A DNA stretch of 64,000 nt from NCBI GenBank assembly GCA_022825185.1, contig JAJDYK010000164.1:12125-76124 (forward strand), read 5' to 3'. Position 1 is the stretch's first letter. Each line of letters begins with the position of its first letter. The position numbers and the translations under genes were made by a program. This document shows, one piece after another, positions 3 to 9,538 of the stretch. The DNA is from Candidatus Latescibacterota bacterium. Lineage in GTDB: Bacteria; Latescibacterota; UBA2968; UBA8231. Under the pieces are notes generated by a model. It ran no database searches, was not told the origin of the DNA, and saw nothing but the letters and a program-made list of their open reading frames with translations.

Positions 3-2606
3 TGCGTGCGCCAACTCGTTGCCAATGCCCGCGAGACAGGAACCGGACAGCACTATCTCATCCAACACTCGGCCGGAAGCGGCAAGAGCTTCACCATCGC
101 TTGGCTCGTCCACCAACTCTCCACCTTGCACAACGCCGCTGACCGCCGCGTCTTCGATTCCATCGTAGTCATCACCGACCGCCGCGTGCTCGACCGCCAA
201 CTCCAAAGCACCATACGCCAGTTCGAGCAAACGCTAGGCGTGGTGGAAAACATCGACACCACCTCGCGCCAACTCAAAGACGCCCTCGAAGCGGGCAAGA
301 CGATCATCGTCACCACGCTACAGAAATTCCCAGTCATCGCCGCAGAAATCGGCGCACTGCCGGGCAAGCGCTTCGCCCTAATCGTCGATGAAGCGCACTC
401 ATCGCAGTCGGGCGAGAGCACCAAGAGCCTCAAGACCGTGCTGGCCCCGAAGTCCCTCGAAGAGGCAGAGAGCGAGGAATCCGAGGCCGAGACTCCCGAA
501 GAAGAGCTTGAGAACGCGATCCTGGCCGAGATGGAAAAACGCGGGCGCTTGCCCAATGTTTCGACCTTTGCCTTCACCGCCACGCCCAAGCCCAAGACGC
601 TGGAACTCTTCGGGACCAAGCACCCCGATGGCTCATTCGCACCGTTTCACCTCTACAGCATGCGCCAAGCAATCGAAGAGGGATTCATCCTCGACGTCTT
701 GGAAAACTACACCACCTACACGGCCTATTGGCGGCTGTGGAAGACCGTCGAAGACGATCCGCGCTACGACAAGCGCAAGGCCGCTTTCCTGCTCAAATCC
801 TTTGTCGAACTGCACCCGCACGCCATCGGCGAGAAGGTGCGCATCATGGTCGATCACTTTGCCGAGCAGGTGCAAAATCAGATCAACGGCAGGGCCAAAG
901 CCATGATCGTCACCCGCTCGCGCCTGCACGCAGTGCGGTACAAGCTGGCAGTGGATGAGTACCTCGCTGAGCGGGGATATTCGTTCAAGGCGTTGGTTGC
1001 GTTCTCAGGCACCCTTGACGATGGTGGTCGGTCCTACACTGAGCCAAGTATGAACGGAATCTCAGAGGCGCAGACCGCCAAGACGTTCGAGGGGCCGGAC
1101 TATCGCTTCCTGATCGTCGCCAACAAGTTCCAGACCGGGTTCGACCAGCCGCTGCTGCACACCATGTATGTGGACAAAAAACTCGGTGGCGTAAACGCAG
1201 TGCAGACCCTGTCGCGGCTCAACCGCACACACGCGGAAAAACAAGGCACCATGGTGCTCGACTTCGCCAACGAGTCCGACGAGATCAAGACCGCCTTTGA
1301 GCCTTACTATGAGACGACGCTGTTGTCAGAATCAACCGATCCCAACCTGCTCTACGAAATCCAAACCAGCCTCAGCACGTTCCCCGTTTATGCCCAAACC
1401 GACGTGGACAGTTTCGCCAAAGTCTATTTCGACGGCACAGCCACTCAGGATCAGCTCTACGCCGTACTCAATCCAGTCGTCGCTCGTTTTCAGGAGCTAC
1501 ACGAGGACGAGCGACAGGATTTCCGCAGCAAACTCACGGACTACGTGCGGCTCTATGCGTTCCTCGCACAGATATTGACCTTTGCCGATACCGATCTGGA
1601 AAAGCTCTACGTCTTCGCACGATACTTGCGCCGACTCTTACCTGCCGACCAAGAGGAATTACCACACGAAGTGCAGCAGAACATCGATATGGAATCGTAT
1701 CGGGTTCAGGAGACGGGAAGCGGCAAGATCGCTCTTAAGCGCAAGACGGGGACGCTCGACCCCATCGGTACGAAGGACGCACACGGACATGTACCGGAAG
1801 AAATGGAGACGCTGTCGCGGATTATCGCCGAACTAAACGAGCGCTTTGGCATCGAACTCGGCCCCGAACATCGCGTCACCCTTGGCCAGATGATGGAAAG
1901 GCTCGTTGACGACGCCGCACTCGATGCCGCAGCGCGGGTAAATACGCGCGAAAACGTGCGATTGACCTTCGACCACAAGGTCGAGCAAGTAATCCAAGAG
2001 ATCGTCGATTCCAACTTTGATCTGTACAAGCGCATAACTGACGATCGCGCCTTCGGAGCGGAGCTCAAGAATCACCTCTTCGACCAATATCTCCGCAACC
2101 ATCGCAACGCCGAGGAACTCATCAAACAAGGTGAGTCGAAGACCCTAGAGTTCAAGTCAACGCTGCGCTGGAATCTCAAGGAGGACCGCAGGGACGGTAG
2201 GCGCATCACTCATGCCGCGCTCAAGACAATCGCGGCGTTCTTGAACACGGAAGGCGGGGATCTCTTGCTCGGCGTGGCCGACGACAGTACCGTCGTTGGC
2301 ATCGAACGCGACCGGCTCGACAACGATGACAAATTCATGCTCCATCTCGCGCAGGCCGTGCGCAGCGGACTTGGAGACCGCGCCGGGACGTGCATCGATC
2401 CCAAAATACAAATCGTCGATGACAAGAGCGTCTGCGTGGTGAGTTGCCAGCGAAGCCCAGAGCCTGTCTTCCTCACTTGGAAGGGAGTTGAGACGGAAGC
2501 GGATGGCGACTTCTTTGTGCGCAGCGGTCCGGGAACTGTGAAGTTATCGCCCGATGATGCCAAAGAGTATGTCCGAACCAGATTTGATCAGGTGCGGACT
2601 CCGTGA
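3..2606 (+). CDS. Type I restriction HsdR-like helicase with C-terminal AlbA_2 domain (5' truncated)
   Basis: This is the ATP-driven motor part of an HsdR-like restriction subunit; the 5' end lies outside the window. The reading frame is open to the window edge, and the N-terminal nuclease domain expected of an HsdR protein (usually about 1000 residues) is absent. Counting from the first in-frame GTG (position 6), a Walker A motif (HSAGSGKS) lies at residues 21-28. A DEAH box (VDEAHSSQSGE) and the motif FTATPKPKTLELFG follow, typical of superfamily 2 translocases. The last 160 or so residues (from about 700; GESKTLEFKST, then NTEGGDLLLGVADD) match the AlbA_2/Schlafen-type DNA-binding fold, which is not usual in HsdR. 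No hsdM or hsdS is visible because the gene is cut by the window edge. The helicase call is firm; the system type is inferred. Confidence 0.85.
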   Translation, partial: CVRQLVANARETGTGQHYLIQHSAGSGKSFTIAWLVHQLSTLHNAADRRVFDSIVVITDRRVLDRQLQSTIRQFEQTLGVVENIDTTSRQLKDALEAGKTIIVTTLQKFPVIAAEIGALPGKRFALIVDEAHSSQSGESTKSLKTVLAPKSLEEAESEESEAETPEEELENAILAEMEKRGRLPNVSTFAFTATPKPKTLELFGTKHPDGSFAPFHLYSMRQAIEEGFILDVLENYTTYTAYWRLWKTVEDDPRYDKRKAAFLLKSFVELHPHAIGEKVRIMVDHFAEQVQNQINGRAKAMIVTRSRLHAVRYKLAVDEYLAERGYSFKALVAFSGTLDDGGRSYTEPSMNGISEAQTAKTFEGPDYRFLIVANKFQTGFDQPLLHTMYVDKKLGGVNAVQTLSRLNRTHAEKQGTMVLDFANESDEIKTAFEPYYETTLLSESTDPNLLYEIQTSLSTFPVYAQTDVDSFAKVYFDGTATQDQLYAVLNPVVARFQELHEDERQDFRSKLTDYVRLYAFLAQILTFADTDLEKLYVFARYLRRLLPADQEELPHEVQQNIDMESYRVQETGSGKIALKRKTGTLDPIGTKDAHGHVPEEMETLSRIIAELNERFGIELGPEHRVTLGQMMERLVDDAALDAAARVNTRENVRLTFDHKVEQVIQEIVDSNFDLYKRITDDRAFGAELKNHLFDQYLRNHRNAEELIKQGESKTLEFKSTLRWNLKEDRRDGRRITHAALKTIAAFLNTEGGDLLLGVADDSTVVGIERDRLDNDDKFMLHLAQAVRSGLGDRAGTCIDPKIQIVDDKSVCVVSCQRSPEPVFLTWKGVETEADGDFFVRSGPGTVKLSPDDAKEYVRTRFDQVRTP

Positions 2607-2708: not shown

Positions 2709-3557
2709 TCACTGGTTGACCTTCAAATTCCATCCACCGCCATTCTTGAGCTTAACATTCATATTTCCCTTTTGATCAGTCCGATACAATTTGTTTCCTT
2801 TTTTCCCACCTCGGGAATGTTTCTTGTACAGCTCAATGGCCTCCGCGTCTGGGTGACCGTATGAGTTCTTACCCACTGACACAATCGTCACCGCTGGATT
2901 CATCGCTTTGACGTGGCCTTCGTAGTAGTACTTCTCATCTCGTGGGTCATCGAAGAACGTGATGGAACCATGGTGGCCTGCGACAAGTATTTCACATGAT
3001 AGATCGCTATTGTCGTAGTCTTTTTGAATTGCATACCGCCACGTCTCCGCATCGCTATCGCCTGTGAGCATCACACTCCCTTCGGTTAGCAAGGAGTTAG
3101 GACTCCGATGTTCGACCTTGAGTACAATCCCTTGTGCGTTAGCATTCTTCGCGAGTCGGTCGTCTTTTGCGCTCAGAAACCAAAAGCGTGTCCGACCGAA
3201 ATCTCGCCATTTCAGCTTTTCTTTTAGGACTCCGCCGACCTTTCGTCTCAACTGCATATACTGCCGGTATTCTGGCGTGTCAGTTGATGTTCCCGGGTAC
3301 CCACTATCCCAGATTTTCCGAATAGGAAAGGATTGGTGTAGCTTAGCGACACCACGGATATGATCAGCGTCTCGATGAGAACAAATGAACGCGTCGAGAT
3401 CAGTGTACCAACCTATCTGCTTAGCGACATATTGGAGTACATCATCTTCGTTCTCATCAGTAATATTGCAGTCAAAGACAAAATTCTTCCCATTCGATGT
3501 CTCGATTAGGGACATGTTTCCTTGACCGACATCAATGAAATGTACGATTGTGCCCAT
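2709..3557 (-). CDS. ComEC/Rec2-like metallo-beta-lactamase-fold hydrolase (last gene of the E2-E1-JAB operon)
   Basis: This is a stand-alone MBL-fold protein of 282 residues, of the type found in the ComEC C-terminal domain. The metal-binding motif SHRDADH is at residues 60-66. A later TGDSD and an AGHHGS segment supply further expected ligands, and a C-terminal SVGKNSYGHP segment is typical of this subfamily. No signal peptide or membrane segment is seen, so it should be cytoplasmic. Its ATG overlaps the stop of the upstream membrane-protein gene by one base (TAATG), which implies translational coupling. In ComEC proteins this domain is thought to be a nuclease. Here, beside a ubiquitin-like ligase/peptidase, it could equally cleave a nucleotide, nucleic acid or another small substrate. 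The fold is certain; the substrate is unknown. Confidence 0.85.
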   Translation of the reverse strand: MGTIVHFIDVGQGNMSLIETSNGKNFVFDCNITDENEDDVLQYVAKQIGWYTDLDAFICSHRDADHIRGVAKLHQSFPIRKIWDSGYPGTSTDTPEYRQYMQLRRKVGGVLKEKLKWRDFGRTRFWFLSAKDDRLAKNANAQGIVLKVEHRSPNSLLTEGSVMLTGDSDAETWRYAIQKDYDNSDLSCEILVAGHHGSITFFDDPRDEKYYYEGHVKAMNPAVTIVSVGKNSYGHPDAEAIELYKKHSRGGKKGNKLYRTDQKGNMNVKLKNGGGWNLKVNQ

Positions 3558-4288
3558 TATTCCATATCTTTCAGTTTTACAACGGCGGCGAAGAAGCTCT
3601 CTGCATAATGATTAGCCTTCTGGCGAACGTAGTTGGGCAGGATATAAGCCAGAACCAGTGTACCTATAGCGATGGCCGTGGAAACGATGGCCCAGAAAAT
3701 GGAGCCATCGTACCGCCCATAGTTAATCCAGCATCCGATGAGACTGACCAAAGCGAGAGAGAGCCAGATATATTGGAACCCTGTAAAGTTACGGGCGAAT
3801 CCGTAATCTTTGTTGTGTAGATTCAATCGCTCCGCCTCTGGTGATTTCCATAAACGGTTGCGAAGCTCACTGACGGCATCATTGATAACGGCCCGGACCT
3901 CGTTGTTATCACCCTCCTCGACAGCTTGGGCGATATCGAGGTTAAGCAACTCTTTGATAGCTTGATACCAGCGCAGCTTCTGTTGTTTAGAGATCGACTT
4001 ATCGTCCGGATGGAGAAACTGATTCGTCGGGGAGTCATGGGGCCAGTCGGGCCACATCCTTTCCTGCAAGCGATTACCGAATGCCGAAGCAACGTGAGAC
4101 GCCAATACCGCGAGGACAGCGGCGAGTCCAACACCCGATAGCAGGAAATTAAGCGGTCCAAGAAACGAAATACCGAAAGCACCAGCGATAGGAAACAAGG
4201 GAAGGACGGATAGTACGGCAGGGATAAACCGAGCCTTTCTCTCGTATGGGTCACTCAGGTTGAAGTAACGAAGCCAACTCTTCGTCAT
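3557..4288 (-). CDS. Four-helix membrane protein of the E2-E1-JAB operon, unknown function
   Basis: I do not recognise a named family. The 243-residue protein has two hydrophobic hairpins: one near residues 20-65 (starting FIPAVLSVLPLFPIAG) and one near residues 170-215 (YIWLSLALVSLIGC, then FWAIVSTAIAIGTLVLAYIL). They are separated by about 100 polar residues rich in charge (DDKSISKQQKLRWYQAIKEL, then EEGDNNEVRAVINDAV) that should face the cytoplasm. The start overlaps the stop of the E2-E1-JAB gene by four bases (ATGA), and its stop overlaps the next start by one base. The position inside the operon suggests a membrane anchor, a target of modification, or a membrane-damaging effector. That role is inference only. 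Confidence 0.75.
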   Translation of the reverse strand: MTKSWLRYFNLSDPYERKARFIPAVLSVLPLFPIAGAFGISFLGPLNFLLSGVGLAAVLAVLASHVASAFGNRLQERMWPDWPHDSPTNQFLHPDDKSISKQQKLRWYQAIKELLNLDIAQAVEEGDNNEVRAVINDAVSELRNRLWKSPEAERLNLHNKDYGFARNFTGFQYIWLSLALVSLIGCWINYGRYDGSIFWAIVSTAIAIGTLVLAYILPNYVRQKANHYAESFFAAVVKLKDME

Positions 4289-6576
4289 TGCGTTGTCCTT
4301 GTCAAAGGGGATGTTCTCTCAGGTGTTCTCACGTAGTATCCAATGCTTTCGGGTTGCCCTACTATCATCATCGTGGCCGGATAGCCATCCGCTTGCATTA
4401 GATCTTCGAGCCATGCGAGAACTTTGAGATCGTCGTTGCCAAGGGTCGTATCGACACCGTCCGGGTGAGAGTGCCATTCCCCAATGTACTCTATCATCCC
4501 ATGTACTTTCTGAGTGAGTGCTTCAACTTTCTCAAAAAGCCCCTCGGATCCCCTGATGTACAACGTAGGCCATTCTTCGCTATCGGGTGGGGAGGGTAAC
4601 GCATCAACGATATAAACGATGCGTCTTTCCATATCGAAGGAGCCCAATAGAACGCCACCTGTTTCGTTGGGAAGTTTGGATTGGCGTAGAGTAGAGAGTT
4701 TCTTGAGCAATGCATCGTCGGTGAGGACTGTCCAACTGTTGATCTGTTTTCGCACCACGGGGGACGGGGACACATTGACTCGTTGGACGACGCCATCGTC
4801 ACTTGAGCGCCAAATCGCCACCGTCGCATCGGTACCACGGATGACATTGCCTATCGCTCGCCCTCCCTGGCTCGCATGGAGAGCCACCATGTGCTGAGGC
4901 AGTCTGCTAGTAATATCACGGCAGGATTGCGCATAGCGATACTGCCGGTCCACATGATCTAGGTGTCCCGATAAGCAGTGGTCGTTCAGAACGGCTCTAT
5001 AGTACTGCATTTCAAGGGCATCAAGAGTAATGTCTCGTTCCTTGTCTTCCGCGAGCAGGACGAGATCTCGCCCAGATGGGGTCAAGAAGAGCGAGATTCG
5101 GCGTGCCGCGCTCTCAGTGTCCCGAGCAAGCATCCTTGCGACGCTCACCGATGTCGACATGTCCAAGATCACATCGGCATCAGCAAGGGCCTTAGACAAC
5201 TTTTGAGCCTGGTTCTCAGGATAAAGTACGTTTACTGGCAGTGCGCTGAACAGATTGACACCCTTCACGATGGTGTTGGCTGATAACGCGACAGCCTCTG
5301 CTTTATTCCACCCCACATAGTTCCCGTCGAGCGCGTGTCTCACTACGTTATGGGGCATCAGAAAATCGTGATCGACCAGCGTCCATGTTCCAAACCCGGA
5401 TCGAGCGAGATTCATGACGACTTGGGAACCGAGTGCTCCTAACCCGACTGTGACGAGACTCATCTCGTCCGCGTGATCTTCACCGTTGAGCCTAGCTGCC
5501 ATCAAGCGATCGACATCATGCGCTACGTTGAGCACATCGACACCCACGGTCTCACCATCCTTGGAGGTGTCCGGCTCTAGAAGAAGACCGACTTGATTTT
5601 CTTGCAAATCCCAAAGGCCGATTTTGATACCGAGTTGGCGAATCTGTAGGCCACCACCACTTTTGTTCTCTTCGGTGTCAAACAGGAAAAACGCCCACAT
5701 ATCAACAACCTCAATCGTGCCGTCGTCATGCCGCTTCTTGGGAAACAGGATGACGAGAAGAAGTTGGGCATCGAGAACAGACCTGTCGCGAGTATGCCAG
5801 ACCCGGAGACGCTCCCTTAGATCAGCAAGGAGATCGAATTTCGCAAGTGCCGTAACGGAGGCGAGGTCCGCAAGTGTCGTCGGCCTTCGATGAATAGCTC
5901 CGTGAGTCTGCGGTTCACAATAATGTACGCTGGCTACTATATCTACGGACTCGTCTTGTAGCTGACCTGTCTTCGCGACCAAAAAAGGCTTCTTGCCATT
6001 TACTGGCCTCACCTGTTCTATGAACAGAGGGACCGAGTCACACTCCCTGAGCTGAGAGGGCGGTGGTAATACAATATGTCCGAGATAGTCCACGAGAAGT
6101 GGCTCTAGGGGTTGGTCGTCCTGATGGAGTTTCCCTTGTCCAGTTAAGGCGAGCCACCTACGGATGTCGTGAACAAATTTTGGTGACGTCCAGCAACGCT
6201 TGAGATCCTCGTACGATCCTTCGTACAAACAGAGGTTGCGAGGGTACTCTTGCAGGTGCAGGTTGAGGTGCGGAACTAGCGGGAAGTCTTCGCGCAGAGC
6301 ATGGATGATCGGGACTATATCATCGGACTTGCAAAACGAGGCGGATATGCGTTCGATGGCCCTAATCGGGTAGTGTTGAACTTGCGCGACTTCTACGTCG
6401 ACGTCAAACACGACGACCTCGACTTCACCTATCCTCCGGCATTCGACGAGCGTGGCAAACTCAATGCGCTTGGCTGATAGACTGAGCGCGAGATCGCGTG
6501 CTTTTAAAACATCAAGCTCGCTAGGCTCGACGCGATCTCCGCAGACGTCGAAGTAGCTCGGCTTCAACTGCGCCAA
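4285..6576 (-). CDS. E2-E1-JAB triple-fusion ubiquitin-like conjugation and deconjugation enzyme
   Basis: One 763-residue polypeptide joins three activities. Residues about 1-160 resemble the prokaryotic E2-like domain, with a likely catalytic Cys116 in RNLCLYEG followed by a conserved tryptophan segment. Residues about 340-600 are a ThiF/E1-like adenylation domain with the nucleotide loop GLGALGS (378-384), the acidic segment LVDHDFL, and a candidate catalytic Cys552 in AQSCRDITS. Residues about 630-750 are a JAB/JAMM metalloprotease with Glu638, His702 and His704 (GEWHSHPDG) and Asp715; the usual serine of the JAMM motif is not conserved (Leu712). E2-E1 fusions with a separate JAB are known from type II CBASS (Cap2 and Cap3). 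Here all three are in one chain and no cGAS-like nucleotidyltransferase is nearby. The start is TTG at 6576 or TTG at 6567; both overlap or abut the upstream MBL gene. Confidence 0.88.
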   Translation of the reverse strand: MAQLKPSYFDVCGDRVEPSELDVLKARDLALSLSAKRIEFATLVECRRIGEVEVVVFDVDVEVAQVQHYPIRAIERISASFCKSDDIVPIIHALREDFPLVPHLNLHLQEYPRNLCLYEGSYEDLKRCWTSPKFVHDIRRWLALTGQGKLHQDDQPLEPLLVDYLGHIVLPPPSQLRECDSVPLFIEQVRPVNGKKPFLVAKTGQLQDESVDIVASVHYCEPQTHGAIHRRPTTLADLASVTALAKFDLLADLRERLRVWHTRDRSVLDAQLLLVILFPKKRHDDGTIEVVDMWAFFLFDTEENKSGGGLQIRQLGIKIGLWDLQENQVGLLLEPDTSKDGETVGVDVLNVAHDVDRLMAARLNGEDHADEMSLVTVGLGALGSQVVMNLARSGFGTWTLVDHDFLMPHNVVRHALDGNYVGWNKAEAVALSANTIVKGVNLFSALPVNVLYPENQAQKLSKALADADVILDMSTSVSVARMLARDTESAARRISLFLTPSGRDLVLLAEDKERDITLDALEMQYYRAVLNDHCLSGHLDHVDRQYRYAQSCRDITSRLPQHMVALHASQGGRAIGNVIRGTDATVAIWRSSDDGVVQRVNVSPSPVVRKQINSWTVLTDDALLKKLSTLRQSKLPNETGGVLLGSFDMERRIVYIVDALPSPPDSEEWPTLYIRGSEGLFEKVEALTQKVHGMIEYIGEWHSHPDGVDTTLGNDDLKVLAWLEDLMQADGYPATMMIVGQPESIGYYVRTPERTSPLTRTTQ

Positions 6577-7691
6577 CCTGCCCGCGGTGCACGCTGGGAC
6601 GTGGCCACAACGCCCGCGCTAAGTGTGCCCTTTTTCAGTGTCGCTTTGTTGTTCCCGATCTCTATTACGACTGGTTTCGGCGCTTTGTCCATCGTGACGA
6701 CGAACTGTCCTCCAAGAGTGCTGACTACATCCTTATAGTAGCGCGCGGCCTGTCGATGTGGTGGCTGCGGGTCGTTATCCTCGTCGCTGCCTGCTAAGGG
6801 AATAGGATTGCTTGTAGAAACAGCAATTGCTCCATCCTGCCCTTTCTTTTCGTACAACTGTGCCACTTTGGGGACGGGTGTCGTCTTGTCTTTTCCCTTC
6901 TCGGGGCCTATAGAAAGATAGCTGCAGTGATGAGGTAGCTTGACGATGTCCCACTCTAGGCGTGAGGTGTTCTGCTTTGACTCTGTGATTTCGACGATCT
7001 GGGTAAGCACCTCGTGAGTAGAATCAGCCAACAGCAACGCCTTGGTCCGAACGCTGTTGACCTCGAAAGTCACTTGTAGCACGAGCGAGTCCTCGTTCCT
7101 ATCCTCGACTGTGTTATCATCCTGGCGGACGGCAAATGGGGAATGAACGAAGAACTCGGCTTGGTGTTTTTGCAAGGAAAACTCAGGCGCTAGTTCTCCC
7201 GCGCTCGTGATCAAGTGAAGCCTTTCGTCGAGCTTGATGCCGTTCTTCTCACACCATTCCTCCAGCCTTTCAGGACGGGAGAAGACACGGATCCCTTTCC
7301 CTTCCCGGAATCGAAATCGAGCTTCCCTCTGCAGAATACGGGCCTCGTCATCGTCAGGGTTCGACTCTGTGATGAGTGCAGCGGGTACCCACATCACGTT
7401 CATTTTTATGCGACCTCCATTCTGGTGCTTTTGGGCATATTCGAGGTGAAAGAAGTCGGTCGCCCCCTTGAAGTGGTCTTTGTCTAGGTGGCTAAACGCT
7501 ACGACATCGAAGTAGTCACGACCCTTCTCCTTGAGGTCAGCCCGGAGTAATTTCGGGAGGTCGCACCTTCGGTCGTCATCGTCGTCTGCGTCCCTAGTAT
7601 CAGCGAAGTCGATGAGGGCCGTACTGCCGCAATCTAGTTCAATCCGACAGCAGTCAGCATTTCCTAGAGAGAACAAGGTCATTGTATGCAT
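6564..7691 (-). CDS. Second ComEC-like metallo-beta-lactamase-fold hydrolase
   Basis: This 375-residue MBL-fold protein differs clearly from the one at 2709. The metal motif SHLDKDH is at residues 67-73, a downstream LLLADSTHE gives the bridging acid, and KLPHHCSYLSIG carries the later histidines. A long insertion (about residues 110-200, including REARFRFREGKGIRVFSR) separates the halves. It has no signal peptide. The ATG at 7691 is set by a strong AGGAGGT nine bases upstream, inside the end of the PIN gene. The 3' end overlaps the E2-E1-JAB gene by 13 bases. Having two different MBL proteins on either side of the conjugation enzyme suggests two non-redundant hydrolytic roles; the substrate cannot be told from sequence. 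Confidence 0.83.
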   Translation of the reverse strand: MHTMTLFSLGNADCCRIELDCGSTALIDFADTRDADDDDDRRCDLPKLLRADLKEKGRDYFDVVAFSHLDKDHFKGATDFFHLEYAQKHQNGGRIKMNVMWVPAALITESNPDDDEARILQREARFRFREGKGIRVFSRPERLEEWCEKNGIKLDERLHLITSAGELAPEFSLQKHQAEFFVHSPFAVRQDDNTVEDRNEDSLVLQVTFEVNSVRTKALLLADSTHEVLTQIVEITESKQNTSRLEWDIVKLPHHCSYLSIGPEKGKDKTTPVPKVAQLYEKKGQDGAIAVSTSNPIPLAGSDEDNDPQPPHRQAARYYKDVVSTLGGQFVVTMDKAPKPVVIEIGNNKATLKKGTLSAGVVATSQRAPRAGWRS

Positions 7692-7697
7692 TTTAAT

Positions 7698-8276
7698 CTA
7701 ACCTCCTATGGCGTCAGCTTTGGCGACACCTGTTTCAAATGATTTGTACAAATCCACAGGCATCAGCCTGGGTGCTGCTAGTTTGCAGAAAGAGGAAAGT
7801 TGCCTTTTCAATTCTGCGAGCACGAGCTTGTCCTCATCCGCTTCCTCAGTGGTAATCACGTTGGCACGAATGGCGAGCTCGAAGAGCCCTAGGGTGTTTA
7901 GGATATGCCCCGTGCCTAGACGAGCTTTGACGAGCTGCAGGAACTTGTGTTGCTCGTCCGACGCGACATACCAGCCTTGGACTTCCGCCATAGCTAAGCA
8001 AGCGGCCTCGCCCCTACCGATCACATGCGTGTGCTCGGCGTAGAGCACGAGTTCGTCAGTACTGGTGAATGCCCGCCGCCGGATATGATCTGCGTCGAAG
8101 GCACGGGCAAGTGCCCGCGAGTAGTCTGGAACTCTGATTTCGGCTTCGACTTCCAGAGGCACGACGAATTCGTAACTGGCCAGCGCACCGAGCAAGTCGA
8201 GCCGGTCAATATGTATTAGGTTGATGAGTACGTTAGCATCGGTCACAACCACATATATTGGATTAAGAGCGCTCAT
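7698..8276 (-). CDS. PIN-domain protein ending in Gly-Gly
   Basis: This 192-residue protein has the PIN nuclease layout. The first strand VVTDANVLINL provides Asp13 and Asn15, VEAEI gives Glu44, GRGEAACLA gives Glu90 and VASDEQH gives Asp107, so the acidic cluster for metal-dependent RNA cleavage appears intact. An extra helical region of about 60 residues follows the PIN fold. The last residues are ADAIGG. A C-terminal diglycine is what E1 enzymes activate, but the codons GGA GGT also form the Shine-Dalgarno sequence of the next gene, so the ending may be accidental. The start overlaps the stop of the XRE-ImmA gene by one base (TGATG). PIN next to XRE-ImmA could also be read as a toxin-antitoxin pair embedded in the operon. 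Confidence 0.8.
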   Translation of the reverse strand: MSALNPIYVVVTDANVLINLIHIDRLDLLGALASYEFVVPLEVEAEIRVPDYSRALARAFDADHIRRRAFTSTDELVLYAEHTHVIGRGEAACLAMAEVQGWYVASDEQHKFLQLVKARLGTGHILNTLGLFELAIRANVITTEEADEDKLVLAELKRQLSSFCKLAAPRLMPVDLYKSFETGVAKADAIGG

Positions 8277-9538
8277 CAGTTACTCCCGAGTAAACGAACC
8301 TCGACACCCTCGTCATCGTCGAGGCCTAGGGCAGAAATGGCTTGATCTACCTCCTCAGCGTCGACACCGACCAGGGTTACGACCTCGTGAAGTTTCATCC
8401 GAGAGATTTTTTCGCGGCGCAATGCCTCTAGAGCTAGACTTAGGAAACGGTCACGGAACTCGTTACGCTGTTGGTGGTTTGGCTCAGGGATCCCTAGGAG
8501 TTGCTCCAACTCGCGGCCTCTTGCCCAATCCTGTTTTAGCAAGATATCGAGTTCCTGGGCTGTGATAAGTCGTGTGCTCTTCAATCGGTAGCAGGCCGCA
8601 GTCCTGCTGACGCCAAAGTGGTGTGCCATCTGGACCACGTCGTAGATCTGTATTTCTTGGCTCCCAGGGGCAGAGCGTGTCCGAGCTCGGATGGGTGCCT
8701 CTTCGTCGAACACCTCGATCTCCCTCCTGCTCGGCCACCCCTTGCCAGAGGCATGGATGAACTGGAACACCGCATCGGCTGGCATCAGGAAACTCGCGGC
8801 GAAGGAGTTAGCACGGACCTCGCACAATTCGTCTCGGTCCTGCCCACGGCTGACGAGGCCCCGTTGGTCGCGGTCCACAAGCACATGACAGTATTCATGT
8901 GCATACGAGAAGCGACGGCGTAAGATGTGATGCTCCCGGTTCGTCACAACTAGGAAGCCGATCTCGGGCTCGATGAGCGTCAAGCCCGAGATGTCCTCAG
9001 GAAGGCTGACTTGGGCCGTGCGAACCCCCTGAGCCTTGAGTATTTCGGCGATGTCCGGCAGTGAAGTAAGGCCTAGACTGAGGCGCTTGCGCTCTTCAAG
9101 GGCAACGCGTTCACCCTGTTGTATAGCTTCCCAAGTAGTGAGAGGCTGCGGCAGCGGGTAGGAGGCAACCGTGGCAAGGTCGCGGTCGATGTCGAGTAGT
9201 CGCTCAAGCTTGGTCAACTCCCGACCTAGGTCCGTACTCCGGCGTAGGGCCTCAAACACCTCCTCTTGGCTCAGAAGTTCCGGATGAAGACGAAAGAGCA
9301 CGACGAGAACATCCTCCTTGGCGGGGTTCTCGTCCGCCACGAAGCTCTGCAGATCCCTACCGAACAGGTAAGCAAGTCGAGACAGCTCGATACCTGTAAC
9401 CGTACGGTTGCCGAGTTCCATCTGCGTCACAGTGGAGCGCGAAACTCCGAGGTGATGTGCAACGTCGTCTCGGGTCATGGTGCTGGCCTCTCGGGCGTGC
9501 CTAAGCCTCTGCCCCAATTCCTTTTCGTCGATTGCCAT
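8276..9538 (-). CDS. XRE regulator fused to ImmA/IrrE zinc peptidase (first gene of the operon)
   Basis: The N-terminal residues 8-62 form a helix-turn-helix of the XRE class (HLGVSRSTVTQMELGNRTV). The middle holds an ImmA/IrrE (DUF955) metallopeptidase: the zinc motif HEYCH is at 214-218 and the third ligand Glu240 lies in CEVRANSFAASFLMP. In known phage and mobile-element systems such proteins sense damage or cleave a repressor; here repressor and peptidase are one chain. The C-terminal 140 residues have helical character and include a second DNA-binding-like segment (HFGVSRTAACYRL). A strong ribosome site (TAAGGAGG) sits eight bases before the ATG, and a promoter lies about 95 bp upstream. 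It is the likely sensor and autoregulator of the E2-E1-JAB operon; that role is inferred from position. Confidence 0.88.
   Translation of the reverse strand: MAIDEKELGQRLRHAREASTMTRDDVAHHLGVSRSTVTQMELGNRTVTGIELSRLAYLFGRDLQSFVADENPAKEDVLVVLFRLHPELLSQEEVFEALRRSTDLGRELTKLERLLDIDRDLATVASYPLPQPLTTWEAIQQGERVALEERKRLSLGLTSLPDIAEILKAQGVRTAQVSLPEDISGLTLIEPEIGFLVVTNREHHILRRRFSYAHEYCHVLVDRDQRGLVSRGQDRDELCEVRANSFAASFLMPADAVFQFIHASGKGWPSRREIEVFDEEAPIRARTRSAPGSQEIQIYDVVQMAHHFGVSRTAACYRLKSTRLITAQELDILLKQDWARGRELEQLLGIPEPNHQQRNEFRDRFLSLALEALRREKISRMKLHEVVTLVGVDAEEVDQAISALGLDDDEGVEVRLLGSN

Follow-up and report, generated by a model that had tools for sequence, protein, structure and literature searches.

A 6A-MBL operon with a four-helix membrane protein in Candidatus Latescibacterota: a probable type II CBASS-like variant with a ComEC-type MBL in the place of the cyclase

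The stretch of DNA analysed here, called the window throughout, comprises 64,000 nucleotides of a Candidatus Latescibacterota bacterium (contig JAJDYK010000164.1, positions 12,125 to 76,124), and at positions 2709-9538 it carries six abutting genes on the minus strand, an arrangement that an earlier note made from the sequence alone had described and that the list of open reading frames (ORFs) bears out. The operon encodes a fused E2-E1-JAB protein and, next to it, a ComEC-like metallo-β-lactamase-fold (MBL) protein, here termed MBL1. It is probably a membrane-effector variant of the system named 6A-MBL in NCBIfam, resembling type II cyclic-oligonucleotide-based antiphage signalling systems (CBASS), with the ComEC-type MBL in the cyclase's place as the C-terminally conjugated enzyme and with exchangeable membrane effectors. 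The features of the operon are as follows (aa, amino acids; TM, transmembrane).

8276-9538, minus strand: XRE-ImmA, 420 aa
7698-8276, minus strand: PIN-like protein, 192 aa
6564-7691, minus strand: MBL1, 375 aa, with an HxDxDH motif at residue 68
6576-6578, minus strand: codon of Gly372 of MBL1, the proposed conjugation residue, followed by three residues (WRS) and the stop
4285-6576, minus strand: E2-E1-JAB, 763 aa, with catalytic residues E2 Cys116, E1 Cys552 and JAB Glu638/His702/His704/Asp716
3557-4288, minus strand: four-TM helical membrane protein, 243 aa, with hydropathy peaks at 25-43, 48-66, 170-188 and 199-217
2709-3557, minus strand: MBL2, a second ComEC-like MBL, 282 aa, with HRDADH at 61, HHGS at 195 and GHP at 234 and no terminal Gly

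From XRE-ImmA to MBL2, the successive junctions are a 1-nucleotide overlap, a 6-nucleotide gap, and overlaps of 13, 4 and 1 nucleotides. The 13-nucleotide overlap between MBL1 and E2-E1-JAB becomes a coupled TTGA if the inner TTG at 6567 is taken as the start of E2-E1-JAB, and a homologue 89% identical to this protein (P0002) likewise begins at that codon, which is the probable true start.

The core pair of this operon is already known. The E2-E1-JAB protein passes the NCBIfam model NF058523 (6A-MBL_cap2_3, “anti-phage 6A-MBL system”) with 625.4 bits (cut-off 320), and MBL1 passes NF058524 (6A-MBL enzyme) with 381.5 bits (cut-off 220). The anti-phage label of 6A-MBL comes from the NCBI family name alone, and a literature search found the name “6A-MBL” in no paper. 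The same pair forms row 6a of Iyer, Burroughs and Aravind (2006; PMC1779556), where, as far as the accessible text goes, operon type 6a pairs a triple-module E2-E1-JAB protein with an adjacent specialised MBL, typically as two genes; the window has the same direct adjacency, with both proteins over their cut-offs, and adds the four-TM protein, MBL2, the PIN-like protein and XRE-ImmA. Three Pfam families match the E2-E1-JAB protein over cut-off (Prok-E2_A, 85.5 bits; ThiF, 54 bits; Prok-JAB, 29.9 bits), the fused JAB domain spanning residues 622-708. Its match to the PADLOC E1-E2 model has an E-value of 2.4e-25, and the best PDB sequence matches of its profile are Cap2 chains. C116, C552 and H702, which the earlier note had named for mutation, are invariant in 30 of 30 aligned rows, as are the JAB ligands. 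Residue 713 of the JAB domain is Gly in the window and Ser in 111 of the 116 homologues with a readable site; the JAB of this clade may be weakened or altered, judging from this substitution, although its metal ligands are intact.

The E2-E1-JAB profile served to collect loci, and of 442 confirmed relatives the 80 best are counted below, more distant ones lying outside this sample; gene maps were built from ORFs, and the viral loci L088-L096 were excluded from the locus counts. Three protein searches yielded the best 120 of 743, 4087 and 204 matches, all 120 of each entering the C-terminus counts, and alignments A1, A2 and A3 took 29, 13 and 20 of the listed homologues, picked for spread, with A2 picked after the locus tails had been seen. 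MBL1 adjoins the E2-E1-JAB gene in 78 of the 80 loci, the contigs of the other two having only 2 and 433 bases ahead of the E2-E1-JAB gene, and it is present in every one of the 62 loci with 2.5 kb on both sides. The earlier note was right about a ubiquitin-like conjugation system, probably a defensive one, and about the association with MBLs that Aravind's group had described, and the pairing with MBL1 is near-constant; a distinct new system made up of all six genes is not supported, the core already having a name.

MBL1 has no significant Pfam match and was identified by NCBIfam and by fold. It is closest, by fold and by sequence in the PDB, to the MBL (nuclease) domain of ComEC, and the HxDxDH motif together with further His and Asp residues places it among MBLs of the ComEC type; the presumed metal-site residues H68, D72, H73, D223, H254 and H255 are kept in 36 of 36 aligned rows.

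The feature of MBL1 that bears most directly on what the enzyme conjugates is its C-terminus. In the window the protein ends in a flexible tail, ...APRAG-WRS, and 93 of the 120 listed MBL1 homologues (a best-match list that includes the window copy) have a final Gly, 91 of them exactly at the motif. The motif lies at most 10 residues from the end in 119 of the 120, the exception being a 321-residue entry. Among the MBL1s of the loci scoring above 200 bits (n = 78), 50 have G as the last residue and the motif lies at most 8 residues from the end in 74, with those of L026, L069, L070 and L082 lacking it within that distance. All five plasmid copies checked (Gluconobacter, Magnetospirillum, Deinococcus, Hymenobacter and Nostoc) have PRAG either terminally or three residues earlier, and three of four copies on viral contigs have the motif at most 5 residues from the end; a viral-contig MBL1 relative in L093 (7813-8964, plus strand) has no PRAG motif at its end. 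As controls, a terminal G was found in 77 of 851 other ORFs of at least 150 aa in the same loci, in 11 of 120 listed E2-E1-JAB homologues, in 18 of 120 listed membrane-protein homologues and in none of the 17 proteins that make up the MBL2-like cluster. The third base of the Gly codon varies freely (all four bases used, in 21, 21, 20 and 12 of 74; entropy 1.97 of 2 bits), indicating that no DNA signal explains the conserved Gly. Residues 350-368 are weakly conserved, with a mean top-residue frequency of 0.43 compared to 0.65 in the body (36 rows, picked after seeing the tails), and the end from residue 356 is disordered in the predicted model, with a predicted local distance difference test score (pLDDT) of about 33 in the tail.

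By analogy, such a pattern is seen at ubiquitin-like C-termini and in the tail of the cGAS/DncV-like nucleotidyltransferase (CD-NTase) conjugated by Cap2. The Cap2 of CBASS conjugates the CD-NTase, the last residue of which is a conserved Gly or Ala, according to the accessible part of PMC10097602. It is therefore likely that the enzyme conjugates its partner MBL1 and neither a cyclase nor a ubiquitin-like protein encoded separately, and this is the new and testable point. The literature search found no account of what the E1-E2 enzyme of 6a operons acts on, and nothing on the MBL1 tail or on the effector exchange described below, both of which some recent papers may treat. The strongly conserved Gly at the C-terminus of MBL1 narrows such a test to one residue.

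Downstream of the core pair, the window encodes the four-TM protein, for which AlphaFold2 predicts an all-helical model (pLDDT 89.9). It had no PDB fold match below an E-value of 0.001 and no PADLOC match, including the M48A model, and only a weak similarity to NF033634 SLATT_1 (E 0.042; 13.8 of 41 bits). The order of a membrane protein followed by an MBL is the same as in the PADLOC system PDC-M48 (M48A, a small TM protein, and M48B, an MBL). Within 5 kb of the core pair, a patatin occurs in 35 of the 80 loci and the membrane-protein family in 31, and the two occur together in none (Fisher p 3e-10 for the 62 flanked loci, a value that ignores shared ancestry). Of the 35 patatins, 32 lie immediately downstream on the same strand, one lies upstream and two are on the opposite strand; of the 31 membrane proteins, 21 hold that immediate downstream position, six lie upstream, one lies at a greater distance downstream and three (one of them at 23 bits) are on the opposite strand. 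Neither occurs in 14 loci, and five of these (L013, L036, L049, L052 and L056) have another small downstream protein with two to four hydrophobic segments, which in L036 is a PADLOC PDC-M48A protein (206 bits). The oxyanion glycines and the Arg are present in 33-34 of 34 patatins, and the SGGS Ser and DGG in all 34. The sequences behind the patatin profile, and behind the WYL and kinase profiles too, came from these 80 loci themselves. In a relative from the class of the nearest genome (L098, G029 contig 138, 223-3684, minus strand), E2-E1-JAB is fused to a patatin in one 1153-residue ORF adjoining an MBL1. The locus on plasmid pGOX1 of the cultured relative Gluconobacter oxydans 621H (L117) has an MBL, E2-E1-JAB and a patatin.

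MBL2 matches Pfam Lactamase_B over cut-off (30.1 bits) and PADLOC PDC-M48B weakly (2.4e-13, 48 bits); with 66 bits it falls below the NF058524 cut-off and is a shorter, different ComEC-like MBL. The MBL2 profile detects a second MBL alongside the membrane protein in 9 of 31 loci and alongside a patatin in 2 of 35, and close relatives of the window MBL2 occur in L016 and L029. On these sequence comparisons, MBL2 appears to be an accessory to the membrane-protein variant. In a Nostoc linckia plasmid locus (L121), the gene after that for the membrane protein encodes an S1/P1 nuclease (6630-7532, plus strand), and three Bacteroidales loci (L075, L083 and L085) show a rearranged order of membrane protein, 429-aa and 198-aa genes, MBL1 and E2-E1-JAB.

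Upstream of the core pair, XRE-ImmA matches Pfam HTH_31 (42.1 bits) and Peptidase_M78 (49.8 bits) over their cut-offs, has an HEYCH motif at residue 214 and resembles the PADLOC models RmrA (6.1e-23) and capP (5e-16). It shares with CapH+CapP the upstream position and the XRE DNA-binding and ImmA peptidase domains, and differs in that both are fused on one 420-aa chain instead of being two genes; it is likely an operon regulator resembling a fused CapH+CapP, or else the antitoxin of the PIN-like gene. The PIN-like protein has no Pfam match, and its assignment comes from a weak PADLOC PDC-S70 match (2.5e-7) and an acidic motif that we take to be PIN-like. It matches the corresponding partner in L054 by phmmer (1.2e-7) and is probably a toxin or nuclease partner of XRE-ImmA. 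Such a partner stands beside a fused XRE-ImmA in three of five loci examined closely (L032, L036 and L054), with L046 doubtful, and none of the partners in these four loci shares the ...AIGG end of the window protein. The profile of the window protein found only L054 among 96 loci, the other 75 of the 80 loci having been searched for PIN by that profile alone. In L022, the fifth of these loci, a sigma-70-like protein (7537-8046, minus strand) accompanies the XRE-ImmA gene upstream of MBL1 in place of a PIN-like partner.

Sixty-six of the 80 loci, those with 3.5 kb upstream, were eligible for a count of regulators, and 16 of them have XRE/ImmA (fused or paired), 11 WYL, 4 a kinase type and 35 none of these, with no combinations among the three types. 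WYL was confirmed by Pfam in both scanned members (L071 and L034); of the kinase type, L084 and L121 have an HATPase (in L084 just under the Pfam cut-off), L121 a weak STAS and L053 a winged helix. These kinase-type genes resemble CapK/CapS as described in the accessible text of PMC13373217. Under the condition that the earlier note set for its own refutation, E2-E1-JAB homologues nearly always occurring without the MBL, PIN and XRE-ImmA genes, MBL1 keeps its place with the E2-E1-JAB gene (78 of 80 loci), but XRE/ImmA is found upstream in only 16 of 66. The six genes do not look like one conserved machine, and those around the core pair look exchangeable; the window operon belongs to a known kind of system, here in a membrane-effector variant that has a second MBL and carries regulatory or toxin-antitoxin genes as exchangeable cargo.

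Type II CBASS shares with this operon and its relatives E1-E2 and JAB domains, a Gly motif conserved at the C-terminus of an enzyme and, as seen in the relatives, membrane effectors including patatin and CapH/CapP- or CapW-like regulators. The window differs in having a ComEC-like MBL beside E2-E1-JAB and in the fusion of the JAB, with no separate Cap3 gene. A Gly/Ala-ended CD-NTase is not present, the six genes having no CD-NTase match by Pfam, PADLOC or NCBIfam (for E2-E1-JAB in PADLOC, among the matches listed, 25 of 54), and the like feature stands on MBL1, with a three-residue tail after the Gly in the window. Bil has E1, E2 and JAB activities too, but in the window these reside on one chain. 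The same difference holds for Bub, as far as it is described in the accessible part of PMC13373217. Pfam, PADLOC and NCBIfam gave the six genes no match to the ubiquitin-like beta-grasp gene of Bil and Bub, and none of the short ORFs at 9.5-10.1 kb is a plausible candidate for it. The Trypsin-MBL modules (HamM and its relatives in Hachiman, AVAST, Lamassu and DRT), in the available portion of PMC12799240, likewise place a ComEC-like MBL in a defence operon; here, however, the proposed switch is conjugation, and no trypsin-like protease was matched in the six genes by Pfam, PADLOC or NCBIfam.

From the gene content, the conserved residues, the pairing, the Gly motif and the non-co-occurrence of effectors and of regulators, we infer the following chemical steps, signal and role in phage defence. 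XRE-ImmA would repress the operon until DNA damage or infection relieves it, as reported for CapH+CapP, which responds to DNA damage according to the accessible text of PMC13373217. The JAB domain or another protease would then trim the WRS tail, the E1 domain would adenylate Gly372, and MBL1 would pass via Cys552 and Cys116 to a target lysine, perhaps on MBL1 itself, in a bond that the JAB could reverse. Conjugation would activate MBL1 as a ComEC-like nuclease or phosphodiesterase, and its action or a nucleotide product would trigger whichever effector occupies the adjacent slot (in the window the four-TM protein together with MBL2, in relatives a patatin phospholipase), so that the membrane would be damaged and the infected cell would stop. 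The operon likely serves defence, while a nuclease or messenger relay is suggested only tentatively; the odds worded here for conjugation, defence and relay are judgements, not computed values. In its fullest form, a rather speculative one, 6A-MBL would be a cyclase-free counterpart of type II CBASS, in which a ComEC-type nuclease is switched on by conjugation of its own C-terminal Gly and the released nucleotides are the signal opening exchangeable membrane effectors, here the four-TM protein and MBL2.

MBL1 might instead be the killing nuclease itself, switched on by conjugation rather than proteolysis, with the membrane protein or patatin as a second, independent effector. Its ComEC-like fold and its resemblance to the PADLOC models RTasMBL, LmuA and Avs1a are consistent with this, as is HamM, a ComEC-like MBL that is a proenzyme DNase in defence according to the accessible part of PMC12799240. 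However, a near-constant nuclease would not need a patatin or membrane protein, and the two were found together in none of the 80 loci and mostly hold the same place, as expected of a coupled effector, which makes this alternative unlikely. Less probable again is that MBL1 is a modifier tag placed on phage or host proteins to disable them, the tag itself being the weapon, as in Bil, which reportedly attaches a ubiquitin-like protein and acts on phage assembly. The C-terminal Gly motif, the full E1-E2-JAB set and the apparent want of a beta-grasp modifier gene, for which the operon has no room inside, would suit a tag; the invariant presumed metal site and catalytic fold exceed a tag's needs, and the exchangeable effectors suggest a relay.

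It is more improbable still that adenylation of MBL1 by the E1 serves sulphur transfer or other non-conjugating chemistry, or that the operon has a general stress or metabolic role. The E1 is similar to the ThiF/MoeB type, but sulphur carriers should not need the E2 Cys or the JAB ligands, which are invariant here. Bub operons, which according to the accessible text of PMC13373217 have no shown anti-phage role, would fit a stress function, against which stands the recurrence of immune-type regulators and a phospholipase. Finally, the dedicated six-component system of the earlier note, with PIN and XRE-ImmA as core parts, draws on the tight co-directional junctions and on the pair of XRE-ImmA and PIN-like partner that L032, L036, L054 and perhaps L046 have immediately upstream on the opposite strand, but is very improbable, since most eligible loci lack XRE/ImmA and have other regulators in the same place, and of the five closest well-flanked loci (L008, L022, L010, L011 and L012; 56-62% identity) only L022 has XRE-ImmA, with a sigma-factor-like partner and not PIN.

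If the reading of the operon as a CBASS-like system with a conjugated MBL1 is true, bacteria use ubiquitin-like conjugation to control immune enzymes of more than one class, and regulator, core and effector are modules that can be swapped, as they are in CBASS. The uncharacterised four-TM family would gain a likely role as a defence effector.

The operon looks sporadic and acquired, its kinship to the compared genomes being indirect, because the E2-E1-JAB family is above cut-off in 2 of the 64 genomes available for search from the phylum of the nearest genome and in none of the 11 searched from its genus, and because G+C is low (0.50-0.56 across 2-10 kb of the window compared to 0.60-0.64 across 10-26 kb). 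The low G+C is weak evidence of acquired DNA, since other dips occur in the window, e.g., 0.52 at 50-52 kb. The defence island that the earlier note drew from a flanking HsdR-like gene has support on one side only, as ten sampled neighbours past 10 kb match Pfam metabolic, transport, secretion or repair (RecJ) families. The flanking gene itself (6-2606, plus strand, possibly cut by the window edge) encodes a SWI2/SNF2 helicase that keeps its likeness to HsdR, but it scores 158 bits against the NCBIfam hsdR cut-off of 284 and carries a C-terminal Schlafen AlbA_2 domain.

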